In this document: positions 29,254 to 32,590 of the stretch, one piece after another | Numbering within the stretch: the stretch's first letter is position 1 | Layout: every line of letters starts with the position of its first letter | From: Bacteroidia bacterium | Lineage (GTDB): Bacteria > Bacteroidota > Bacteroidia > Chitinophagales > UBA2359 | DNA: 64,000 nucleotides | Direction of reading: 5' to 3' | Assembly (NCBI GenBank): GCA_030427245.1 | Contig: JAUHXA010000027.1 | Coordinates: forward strand, 1 to 64,000 | The notes under the pieces: generated by a model | Seen by the model: the letters and a program-made list of their open reading frames with translations, nothing else | What the model was told of the DNA's origin: nothing | Database searches by the model: none | Made by a program: the position numbers and the translations under genes

Positions 29254-29679
29254 TTATTGCACCAATTCGGCATCTTCCAATACATAAATCAGTCCATTGG
29301 GCGTTTGAGAGAGTACCAACATTCCTTTGAATTTTCGAGCATCATCCATCTGGAATCGTTGTCCTTTTTGAGCCAATCGAAGTTCTACAATAGATTCTGG
29401 ACCAGCATTTCCACAGAAGAAACAGGAGCTATAGGGAAAAGCAGAAAGTACATAATAGTCTCCGTCTACATCTACGGGAATCATAAACCCTTCGACCATG
29501 ACCGTTTGAAAATTATAGGATTGCAGTTCTTTGCTAAAAATCGGCACATTTTCTCCCATTTCGTCTTCTTCAAATTGGACGTTCATTAGTTGTTTCCAAG
29601 TTAGTTCAGTGGGCATTTGAGCCATTGTATTGAAGCTAAAGAACAAGAAAAAAGCAATAAAAATCAACAATTTATTCAT
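29254..29679 (-). CDS. DUF3299-like exported protein of a metal-transport cluster
   Basis: A 141-residue exported protein. The signal peptide is MNKLLIFIAFFLFFSFNTMA. The mature part shows VEGFMIPVDVDGDYYVLSAF followed by PYSSCFFCGNAGPESIVEL. This resembles the DUF3299 pattern, in which a 'GYMIPL' strand precedes a conserved Cys-containing loop. From memory, DUF3299 proteins accompany ABC transporters linked to zinc supply, such as the Vibrio zrg operon; this supports the same role here but is unverified. The CxxC pair could bind metal. The frame is open for a further 82 codons upstream to an ATG at 29925 that overlaps the permease stop codon; I favour 29679 because of the signal peptide. Confidence 0.65.
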   Translation of the reverse strand: MNKLLIFIAFFLFFSFNTMAQMPTELTWKQLMNVQFEEDEMGENVPIFSKELQSYNFQTVMVEGFMIPVDVDGDYYVLSAFPYSSCFFCGNAGPESIVELRLAQKGQRFQMDDARKFKGMLVLSQTPNGLIYVLEDAELVQ

Positions 29680-29917
29680 TTTATTATTTTTGTTTTGTTT
29701 TCTATTTTCGATTAAAAATTTTTTAATGTTATTTTCTTCTACTGACTCTACGTGTCTGGTTTTCTTTTCATCGTCCAGCGCTTTTTCCTTTCTTGATTCT
29801 CCTTGTTGATGCCATTTATGACTTTTATAGATTAGTTCTTTGCTCAAAGCCTTGAGTGTATCGCTATCTGCAACCAAACCTTTGCCTTCTTGTCTTAACT
29901 CAACGCTTGTTTTCTCC

Positions 29918-31378
29918 TCACGCATTTGCCAATGTTTTTGATATATTCATGTTAAAGGCTTGAAGGGCTGGTAAAATAGCAGCTACTATTCCTATGCAAA
30001 TTGTAGCAACAAATAAAGCACCTTCTTGTGGTAAAAATTGCCATGCCTCCAAACCGTAATGATAGCTGCTTTCCATCAAACCTGATAAAAAATACAAACC
30101 TAACCTACTTATCAACATTCCTAAGACAAAGCCAAGTATAGAAAGGATTAATCCTTCCATCAAGACCAACAAAAACAATTTGGTTCGAGAAGCCCCCATA
30201 GACCGCATTAATGCCATCTCGTATTTTCTTTCTTTAAGTGAATTGAATAAAGATACAAATACACTGATACCAGAAATAAGAATAATGAAAAAAGCTATGG
30301 CTCGAAGTGTATCCATCCCAACACCCATGAGGGTAAATAAGCGATTGACTTCAATAGCAGGGACAGCGGCTTGCATAGATGTATTTTCATTGACCATTCT
30401 CGGAACGGTCATTACTCCCATTTTGCTTTTGAATTTGACTAACATGGCGGTTATCTGCTTTCCTTCTGAATTCTTGGCATTGGGAACAAGTGTGTTTGTT
30501 TTTGTGCTTGGATTGATAGTTGTATTGGAGTCTTCGTGTTCGAAATGGTCATGTTCTTCTTCTGAATGGTCGTGTCCTTCGTGCTCTGAATGACTGTGTT
30601 CCTTATCCTCTACCATTTTTTCATCCTCTGAATGGTCGTGTCCTTCATGCTCTGAATGACTGTGTTCCTTATCCTCCGCCATTTTTTCATCCTCTGAATG
30701 GTCGTGTCCTTCGTGCTCTGAATGACTGTGTTCCTTATCCTCCACCTTTTTTTCATCCTCTGGATGGTCATGTATCGCCCAAACGCTTGTTACATCTGTC
30801 AGTAAAAGTTGGTCAATCACCGAATTGCTGTGTTCAAAAATGCCGACAACTTTGTAATCTGCATGGTCGTGAGCAGGCGCATTTTCTACCAAACCATGTG
30901 CGCTGTGAAAACGGTCACCAATTTTCAATCCCAAATTTTTAGCAACAACTGCGCCAGCCGTTACTTCGTATTCATGCATCCAAAGTTTTCCTTCCTTCAA
31001 TACTACATTGTAATGTTCTGCATACTCTTTATTAGTTCCTACAATTCGATAACCCTTGTAGCTGTCCCCATACGCCAAAGGAATGCCTTGCTTTATAATT
31101 GGGTTTTTCAACAATGCTTCTGCTTCCTCCAATGGAATATTGCCTGTCGGATTGTCTATGTGATAGACACTCGACAAAATCAATTGCAAAGGACTACCTT
31201 TTGCTCCTACCACCATGTCTATACCACTGATGTTTCTTTTGAACTGTTCGTCTAATTGCTTGTTCAGAATCAACAACATGGATACCAAAGCGACTCCCAA
31301 TGTCAACAATAGCAAACTCAAGAAAGTGTTCAAGGGTTTTGCTTTTAAGTTGCTCCAACTAAGTTTGGTTAGATTCAT
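29918..31378 (-). CDS. FtsX/MacB-like ABC transporter permease with His-rich loop
   Basis: A 486-residue inner-membrane permease. TM1 is at ~18-38. A MacB-type periplasmic domain follows (ISGIDMVVGAKGSPLQLIL ...), then three C-terminal TM helices (~365-390, 410-435, 455-475) with the FtsX-like cytosolic loop SLKERKYEMALMRSMGAS. Inserted in the periplasmic domain at residues 203-282 is a His- and acid-rich stretch with about twenty histidines. It is built from three near-identical 22-residue repeats of the type EDKEHSHSEHEGHDHSEDEK. Such loops bind Zn, Ni or Cu, so this is likely the transport or metal-sensing part of the system. The ATPase gene is 74 bp upstream in the same direction; the DUF3299-like gene follows. 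Confidence 0.88.
   Translation of the reverse strand: MNLTKLSWSNLKAKPLNTFLSLLLLTLGVALVSMLLILNKQLDEQFKRNISGIDMVVGAKGSPLQLILSSVYHIDNPTGNIPLEEAEALLKNPIIKQGIPLAYGDSYKGYRIVGTNKEYAEHYNVVLKEGKLWMHEYEVTAGAVVAKNLGLKIGDRFHSAHGLVENAPAHDHADYKVVGIFEHSNSVIDQLLLTDVTSVWAIHDHPEDEKKVEDKEHSHSEHEGHDHSEDEKMAEDKEHSHSEHEGHDHSEDEKMVEDKEHSHSEHEGHDHSEEEHDHFEHEDSNTTINPSTKTNTLVPNAKNSEGKQITAMLVKFKSKMGVMTVPRMVNENTSMQAAVPAIEVNRLFTLMGVGMDTLRAIAFFIILISGISVFVSLFNSLKERKYEMALMRSMGASRTKLFLLVLMEGLILSILGFVLGMLISRLGLYFLSGLMESSYHYGLEAWQFLPQEGALFVATICIGIVAAILPALQAFNMNISKTLANA
30563..30742 (-). repeat. 66-bp tandem repeat encoding the His-rich loop
   Basis: Nearly three exact copies of a 66-bp (22-codon) unit lie inside the permease gene. 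Differences between copies are only a few bases. This points to recent slippage or recombination and to probable length variation between strains. Confidence 0.85.
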
Positions 31379-31452: not shown

Positions 31453-32082
31453 TCATAAGCTTACAATTCCTCCTCCAAAAACCTCCTTCAATCTTTGGTC
31501 ATGTGTCACAATCACCAAGCTCGCTTTTGCCTCCAAAGCCTGCTCCTTCAACAACTCTATAACTTCAAAACAGTTTGTATCATCCAAAGCTGCTGTGGGT
31601 TCATCGGCCAAAATCACATCAGGGCGATTCAACAATGCACGTGCAATTGCCACTCTCTGCTGCTCACCTTGACTCAATTCGGAAGTCTTGTTGTTCAGCT
31701 TACTAACCAAATTCAAACGCTCCAAAAGATGCTTGATTCGGTTTAAATCTTGTGATTCTGCTGCCAAGTATTGCGCCAACAACAAATTGTCTTTCACATT
31801 TAAAGAAGCGACAAAATGAGATTTCTGAAAAACAATGCCAATGTGTTTACCTCGAAATCGGTCCAATTGTTTGGTGGACAGTTGAGTGATATCGGTATTG
31901 CCCACTTCAACTTTGCCTGAAGTAGGTCGCAATAAACCCGCTATCAGATGTAAAAAAGTGGTTTTGCCTTTGCCTGAATCGCCAATAATTAATAAATGCT
32001 CTGACTGAGCCGCTTCAATATCTGGAAATTGAAAGCGATTATGGGCATCGTAGGCAAATTGAAGGGAAGAAGTTTTTAACAT
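31453..32082 (-). CDS. ABC transporter ATP-binding protein (LolD/MacB type)
   Basis: A 209-residue ATPase subunit. Walker A is GDSGKGKT (34-41). The signature LSQGEQQRVAIARALLNRPD is followed by Walker B with VILADEPTAALDD and a switch His in VIVTHDQ. It is short, as usual for MacB/LolD/FtsE-type ATPases that pair with FtsX-like permeases. The cognate permease is the next gene downstream. The start lies 12 bp from a perfect palindrome (32094-32110) shared with the divergent MerC gene, so both sides are probably controlled together. Confidence 0.92.
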   Translation of the reverse strand: MLKTSSLQFAYDAHNRFQFPDIEAAQSEHLLIIGDSGKGKTTFLHLIAGLLRPTSGKVEVGNTDITQLSTKQLDRFRGKHIGIVFQKSHFVASLNVKDNLLLAQYLAAESQDLNRIKHLLERLNLVSKLNNKTSELSQGEQQRVAIARALLNRPDVILADEPTAALDDTNCFEVIELLKEQALEAKASLVIVTHDQRLKEVFGGGIVSL

Positions 32083-32093
32083 GATGAATGCTT

Positions 32094-32110
32094 TTGCAAC
32101 ACTGTTGCAA
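32094..32110. promoter_or_regulatory. Perfect 17-bp palindromic operator, Fur/Zur-like candidate
   Basis: TTGCAACA-C-TGTTGCAA is a perfect 8-1-8 palindrome between the divergent ATPase and MerC genes. It overlaps the -33 element of the MerC promoter. A second palindrome, TTTAACGTTAAA, follows at 32112-32123. The regulator is not encoded in the window. A zinc-responsive Fur-family (Zur) repressor is the obvious candidate given the neighbouring genes. Confidence 0.65.
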
Positions 32111-32135
32111 GTTTAACGTTAAATAATTAACTTTG
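32105..32135 (+). promoter_or_regulatory. Probable promoter of the MerC-domain gene
   Basis: TTG at 32105-32107 and TAACTTTG at 32128-32135 match Bacteroidota -33 and -7 elements with a 20-bp spacer. The -33 half lies inside the palindrome, so a bound repressor would block it. Confidence 0.55.
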
Positions 32136-32200
32136 TGTCAAAGTTAGCATTTTTTGTAGGTTGATTTTTAACTCTCATCCATTAAAAACTTCTATTGCAA

Positions 32201-32590
32201 ATGAAAGTAGATACTATTTCAAACAAAGCAGATCTGATAGGTATCATCAGCGCAGTACTTTGCCTAATTCATTGTCTTGTCCCTCCCATCTTATTTCTCT
32301 TTTTTGGACACCTTATCGAACACAATCACAATCATCTATTTAGATGGGATTATTTCTTTCTCATCATCAGCTCTTATGCTGTTTACCATGCGACTCATCA
32401 TGCAGTGAATGGTTTTATAAAGGGCATCTTGTGGGTTTCCTTTGCAGTCTTATCCATTGCTATTGTTTTACACCATATCCCAGTTATGCATTATATTGCT
32501 TACCTTGCCTCCTTGGGGTTGATAGGCGGGCATTTGGTAAATCTTAGGAAAATTCAAAACTCAAAGGCAAATTCAAACAATACGATGTAA
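32201..32590 (+). CDS. MerC-domain membrane protein
   Basis: A 129-residue inner-membrane protein with four predicted TM helices. The MerC hallmark, a Cys pair in the first helix, is seen as CLIHCLVPP (~residues 21-29). MerC proteins of the mer operon move Hg(II), but chromosomal Bacteroidota members commonly lie beside zinc-homeostasis genes. The ATP-driven metal cluster across the shared palindrome supports a zinc role here. ATG at 32201 is used; a TTG two codons earlier is possible. The last ~14 codons (QNSKANSNNTM and just before) and the stop lie inside a dispersed repeat element, so the native C-terminus has probably been replaced. Confidence 0.82.
   Translation: MKVDTISNKADLIGIISAVLCLIHCLVPPILFLFFGHLIEHNHNHLFRWDYFFLIISSYAVYHATHHAVNGFIKGILWVSFAVLSIAIVLHHIPVMHYIAYLASLGLIGGHLVNLRKIQNSKANSNNTM

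Follow-up and report, generated by a model that had tools for sequence, protein, structure and literature searches.

A short intergenic region of the window (the whole 64-kb stretch of DNA analysed here) lies between a leftward ABC transporter unit and a rightward gene for a MerC-family membrane protein, and carries a 17-bp palindrome that overlaps the MerC promoter (Table 1). The locus raises the question of whether this palindrome is an operator and, if so, which regulator reads it and which of the two units it controls. We propose that it is very probably an operator for Zur, a Fur-family repressor that responds to zinc, through which both the MerC and the ABC unit would be controlled. What can be observed in favour of this proposal is the word itself, how rare it is, which genes it accompanies, its link to Zur-like orthologues and the geometry of the adjoining promoter.

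Table 1. Sequence features and genes around the palindrome (window positions)
Feature	Position	Strand	Basis
17-bp palindrome TTGCAACA-C-TGTTGCAA = TTGCAACACTGTTGCAA, proposed Zur operator	32094..32110	none	sequence and contexts
Adjacent palindrome TTTAACGTTAAA	32112..32123	none	present, common class
TTG, -33 element of MerC promoter, inside right half of palindrome	32105..32107	+	sequence and recurrent geometry
TAACTTTG, -7 element of MerC promoter, 20 nt from TTG	32128..32135	+	TAnnTTTG consensus
TAACTTTG, probable -7 element of leftward (ABC) promoter	32139..32146	-	inferred from consensus
MerC-family membrane protein, rightward unit	32201..32590	+	Pfam PF03203, E=1.9e-13
ABC transporter ATPase (LolD-like), first gene of leftward unit	31453..32082	-	profile/homology matches
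FtsX/MacB-like permease with repeated His-rich insert	29918..31378	-	profile matches
Small exported protein with CFFCG motif, third gene of leftward unit	29254..29925	-	sequence

RESULTS

Layout of the region and chance level

The initial annotation had described a perfect 17-bp palindrome 12 bp from the ATPase start, and both statements hold: the window sequence at 32094-32110 has perfect 8-bp arms around one central base, and the ATPase start codon, on the minus strand, has its first base at 32082, leaving a gap of 12 nt. Palindromes of this class (8-bp arms, one central base) number three in the 64-kb window against a mean of 1.85 in shuffles, which is chance level, so that the symmetry is no evidence by itself; what exceeds chance is the particular word, its rarity and its gene contexts. 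The neighbouring palindrome TTTAACGTTAAA is present as had been described, but it is of an ordinary kind, commoner in shuffles (about 19) than in the window (13 palindromes of 12 bp), and no support for its being an operator was found. Further to the right, TAACTTTG-TGT-CAAAGTTA at 32128-32146 forms a second perfect inverted repeat with 8-bp arms, and consists of two back-to-back -7 boxes, one per direction. No plasmid relatives of the intergenic region were found.

In the leftward unit, the ATPase is 33% identical to that of a Pseudomonas aeruginosa operon with equal gene order. The permease gene contains a His/Asp/Glu-rich tandem repeat of HDHSEHEGHDHSEDEK units (window 30540-30770), and its product likely has a metal-binding loop there. 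The third gene probably starts near 29679, ahead of a signal peptide, and is homologous to a gene adjoining zur in a member of the Spirosomataceae (L195). Its protein reached no Pfam family; the label DUF3299 was rejected, as the protein falls short of Pfam DUF3299 and matches the Pseudomonas protein over a short stretch only.

The word in the host genome

In the 7.58-Mb genome the exact 17-mer occurs in two copies and a reversed control pattern in none. The exact 15-bp core TGCAACNNNGTTGCA has three copies, one in the window and two as a tandem pair 39 bp apart on another contig (C172:155548-155603), directly before genes for a TonB-dependent receptor and a small lipoprotein. No larger repeat was found around the genome's own copies. 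The best NCBIfam match of the C172 receptor is a heme-receptor model, and its match to the ZnuD model (E=5.8e-31) is far below that model's cut-off, so that a zinc role is only presumed for it. Core sites with one mismatch are mostly intragenic, and the two intergenic ones, C88:34078 and C84:39358, were left out of the site count. The former (L143:1501-1515, TGCAACTAGGTTGCG) is some 40 bp ahead of the coding sequence of a P-type ATPase whose N-terminus is His-rich, and may be either a chance match or a weak Zur site in front of a metal exporter gene.

Thus a genome scan for the word, as the initial annotation had proposed, yields exact-core matches only before genes of metal-uptake type, namely in the window and at the receptor and lipoprotein genes of C172. 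The recurrence expected of a Zur box before zinc-uptake genes is seen in relatives (below), and in the genome itself at transport units only, whose zinc role is probable. The further expectation of a link to non-zinc ribosomal-protein paralogs failed: the genome has a single bL31 gene and no second paralogue of it, and no ribosomal-protein genes lie downstream of the inspected core sites (up to one mismatch), the paralogue search covering bL31. A Zur regulon need not include such a ribosomal-protein branch. No box was found before the genome's own zur gene that would point to autoregulation, and a search of the genome for COG0523 gave only weak cobW matches. Elsewhere in this genome (contig C31, L024:1791-3219), a regularly repeated motif that reads FNRTILELK in translated frames looks like a CRISPR array.

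The word in relatives and across Bacteroidota

Of 20 genomes of the host's family, 5 contain the exact 17-mer, the host's own among them (reversed control, 0); in two of the others it precedes a homologue of the C172 lipoprotein gene, and in a third the gene of a His-rich lipoprotein. A phylum set of 395 genomes contains six with the exact 17-mer, and none with the control. The word stands between a divergently transcribed Zur-like Fur gene and merC in G203 and G392, before a DUF1826 gene in G205, between a ZIP zinc transporter gene and zur in G199, and before a lipoprotein-zur pair in G083. Two further genomes (G339 and G181; L156 and L038 between them) have the box before a pyridine-nucleotide oxidoreductase gene of one kind, with merC next in G181.

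A scan of public genomes, with one genome per species, gave at least 119 stretches with the exact 17-mer. Among the matches listed, 21 of 34 intergenic sites titled Bacteroidota have a relevant gene within 1.5 kb and 13 do not, compared with 13% of positions drawn at random from those loci and with 1 of 19 intergenic sites outside Bacteroidota, likewise among the matches listed; the count of 21 is partly circular, because some seed genes were chosen from box loci, and the circularity is smaller for the Fur, MerC and window-operon cases. The box precedes the same ATPase-permease pair as in the window in Flammeovirgaceae (L233), zur-ATPase-permease-third gene in Bacteroidales (L193), the third-gene homologue and zur in Spirosomataceae (L195), zur-znuA-ABC ATPase-znuB in Moraniibacteriota (L249), and cobW in Lewinella and Cytophagales MAGs; in Fibrisoma limi and Arsenicibacter rosenii it lies between merC and a lipoprotein gene. 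The consensus of the zinc-linked sites is ATTTGCAACA-N-TGTTGCAAAT.

Several other contexts were seen in the same scan. Four Chitinophagaceae loci (L192, L199, L211 and L252) have the box before a SCO1/SenC-family gene followed by zur, with merC divergent where the locus reaches that far. In Aquimarina (L229, L232 and L245), the exact 17-mer keeps a distance of 237 bp from the gene downstream, which encodes a 159-aa protein with no Pfam family and is possibly an unrecognised zinc gene. In two Persephonella MAGs outside Bacteroidota (L191 and L242), it lies near two small DUF2173-type genes, with no obvious zinc genes. At least 11 exact 17-mers occur in a Verrucomicrobia MAG, UBA1183 (L190, L198, L209, L216, L225, L240, L246 and L258), embedded in a larger intergenic element that is conserved and flanked by inverted repeats, i.e. 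a dispersed repeat; because this repeat happens to contain the same word, the 17-mer alone is not diagnostic.

Gene-anchored searches and co-occurrence with zur

Other searches started from genes rather than from the word. The core with at most two mismatches, no more than 100 bp from the start, was found upstream of lipoprotein genes in 12 of 31 entries (the host's own gene counted twice), where the rate in shuffles is 0.1% per region. Among the lipoprotein entries with no box, many have the receptor gene first, so that the operon promoter is outside the stretch examined. Upstream of MerC genes, the core with at most two mismatches was found in 7 of 30 cases, and 26 of 68 MerC matches are within 2.5 kb of a Zur-like gene. 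Across the host's order, the box is mostly absent upstream of the orthologous ABC operon.

Presence of the box is tied to presence of the regulator. The exact 15-bp core was found in 9 of 198 sampled Bacteroidota genomes, and zur adjoins the box in several genomes. All nine core-box genomes have a Zur-like orthologue of the host's C39 protein, against 61 of 198 overall (P=1.6e-5), and boxes before MerC genes are confined to genomes that have zur (7 of 11, compared with 0 of 19 where zur is absent; P=1.6e-4), P values that are guides only because related genomes are not independent.

Promoter geometry

A Bacteroidota sigma-A promoter has the -7 consensus TAnnTTTG (PMC9723704), with a TTG upstream at about 20 nt. 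To the right, TTG-N20-TAACTTTG has this form, and its TTG lies in the palindrome as the initial annotation had it, with the MerC ATG at 32201. To the left, towards the ABC unit, there is a -7 box only, with no clear TTG at -33. The palindrome is thus placed as a Zur box would be, as an inverted repeat in the promoter region of the gene to be controlled (8-bp arms, TTG inside, -7 at N20). A scan for an E. coli-type sigma-70 promoter gave nothing at the site, that promoter type being the wrong one for Bacteroidota.

The overlap of the palindrome with the MerC -33 box is backed by the same geometry at other zinc-linked boxes. Of 72 flanks of such boxes, 12 have TAnnTTTG at 17-22 nt from the TTG within the box, where 0.31 are expected, and the spacing among these 12 peaks at 20 nt (seven cases); at other Bacteroidota sites the geometry occurs in 1 of 48, and at non-Bacteroidota sites in 0 of 59. 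Both loci of the host genome have a -7 box 20 nt from the TTG within the box. At C172, one box of the pair has its TTG at N20 from TATATTTG and the other box overlaps that -7 box. With a -7 box 17-22 nt from the box TTG at a number of sites, the double use of a half-site as -33 element recurs among these boxes. There is a second spacing peak near N10, in which case the box falls within the promoter spacer.

Candidate regulator

The host genome has three Fur-family genes, one Fur-like (L016) and two Zur-like (L017 on C141 and L018 on C39). L018, a protein of 140 aa encoded at C39:45615-46034, scores above the cut-off of Pfam FUR and matches PDB sequences of Fur, Mycobacterium tuberculosis FurB and E. 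coli Zur. With the site-B ligands taken from E. coli Zur (PMC4219657), L018 was judged on His77 and Cys88 of site B and on the structural CxxC pairs; in the alignment, both ligand positions and the two CxxC pairs of the E. coli protein are present in L018 and in L017. Against the NCBIfam Zur equivalog NF008646, which models the enterobacterial protein, L018 scores 33 bits, below the cut-off of 167. In a tree with several weakly supported forks, L018 falls in a broad group with most of the box-linked proteins and L017 in a small group that has no box-linked member, both with modest support. L018 is the likeliest protein to act on the palindrome in this genome. Upstream of L017, between it and a tyrosine recombinase gene (L021:8257-8340), there are three TTGCGTAACAA-type words 34 bp apart, possibly another operator or a recombination site.

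DISCUSSION

From the site, its contexts and the promoter geometry, we infer binding by a Zur protein, zinc as the signal and repression as the outcome, with L018 as the one of the two Zur-like proteins that would act. As long as zinc is in good supply, 32094-32110 would be occupied by a Zur dimer carrying Zn, which would mask the -33 TTG of MerC's promoter and, on the ABC side, cover the leader that runs from the probable transcription start to the ATPase start codon; with the -33 masked and the leader covered, both units would therefore be silent. Upon zinc shortage, Zur would lose its zinc and leave, and both units would be expressed, jointly with the C172 outer-membrane receptor operon and its two boxes. 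The initial annotation had regarded the palindrome as placed to repress both units. On the MerC side this stands, and the geometry makes repression by occlusion of the -33 element well supported; control of the ABC unit is put forward more cautiously, because the -33 element of its promoter is weak.

Several points speak against the Zur reading, namely that the box is mostly missing before the orthologous ABC operon in the order, that the genome's own zur gene has none, that the genome has two Zur-like proteins and that the exact word is also found at sites that have no zinc genes. The presence of two Zur-like proteins leads to a variant of the same explanation, in which the Zur operator is read by L017 (C141) and not by L018 (C39). 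L017, too, has the His and Cys positions typical of Zur, but its tree group has no box-linked members and that of L018 has them, although several forks are weakly supported; we regard this variant as rather unlikely. The last point bears on whether the palindrome is chance, or a repeat element, and has no regulatory role. The window does contain chance palindromes of this length, and the copies of the word in one verrucomicrobial MAG belong to a dispersed repeat. In the host genome, however, all three exact cores are in the promoter regions of two transport units and no larger repeat surrounds them, and neither chance nor a repeat fits the gene-anchored conservation, the co-occurrence with zur or the promoter geometry, which makes such an origin very improbable.

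A further rival is an operator read by a Fur-family protein that senses a different metal, nickel in particular (Nur), as TTGCAA-CACTG-TTGCAA matches the Nur consensus letter for letter (PMC3919588). Yet the neighbours of the box are genes for ZIP, ZnuA/ZnuB, zur, cobW and MerC, and nickel transport or superoxide dismutase genes were not seen among those inspected. Moreover, the box-linked regulators keep the Cys88 position that is conserved in Zur, whereas the metal site of Nur has been described as four histidines (PMC7055735). A nickel operator thus appears improbable, and we retain the Zur operator as the reading of the palindrome.

Beyond this genome, we lean towards the view that much of Bacteroidota uses a single Zur operator, ATTTGCAACA-N-TGTTGCAAAT, with a half-site that often serves as the sigma-A -33 element, and that many MerC-family proteins of this phylum are proteins of zinc starvation rather than of mercury resistance. 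If this is true, MerC, the FtsX-type ABC operon, the TonB receptor/lipoprotein pair and the small His-rich lipoproteins would belong to zinc uptake. What the results offer for the study of zinc homeostasis in this large phylum is a proposed operator, a candidate repressor and a list of targets, all open to test. In the open literature, to which the search was confined to the exclusion of subscription journals and of regulon databases (RegPrecise among them), we found no description of a Bacteroidota Zur box, and two Zur reviews there do not mention Bacteroidota; the operator is apparently undescribed for the phylum in that literature.

Comparison with known systems

The Zur boxes of E. coli have a different and longer sequence than the window palindrome. 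L018 itself is only about 28% identical to E. coli Zur over the alignment. An RNNNY motif has been described for the E. coli boxes (PMC6103462). The Streptomyces Nur box (consensus tTGCaa-N5-ttGCAA; PMC3919588), which the window site fits exactly, is likewise read by a Fur-family dimer, but its targets are nickel and superoxide dismutase genes, whereas those of the window-type box are of zinc type.

For the ABC unit, the nearest likeness is the P. aeruginosa operon PA4063-PA4066, whose promoter is bound by Zur with zinc (PMC8531726), and which has ATPase and permease genes in this order and then a small exported protein gene, as in the window. A plasmid copy in P. aeruginosa has the order DUF2796, ATPase, permease, DUF3299, and a Phaeobacter copy of the operon has a Fur-family gene in front. 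The window operon differs in having no DUF2796 gene, and the likeness is drawn from the genes, not from the sequence of the Pseudomonas Zur box.

For the box itself, a near-identical word has already been predicted as a Zur box, in Desulfovibrio, as ATGCAACNNNGTTGCAT before znuABC-zur (Rodionov et al. 2004, PMC545781). Like the window box, it is a 17-bp palindrome with a TGCAAC...GTTGCA core before zinc-uptake genes linked to zur, and the C172 copy ATGCAACAGTGTTGCAA is one base apart from the D. vulgaris site ATGCAACAGTGTTGCAT. The Desulfovibrio box, which belongs to another phylum and is likewise a computational prediction only, usually has T/A rather than A/T as its outer base. Unlike in Desulfovibrio, the targets here are MerC, the FtsX-type ABC operon and the TonB receptor pair.
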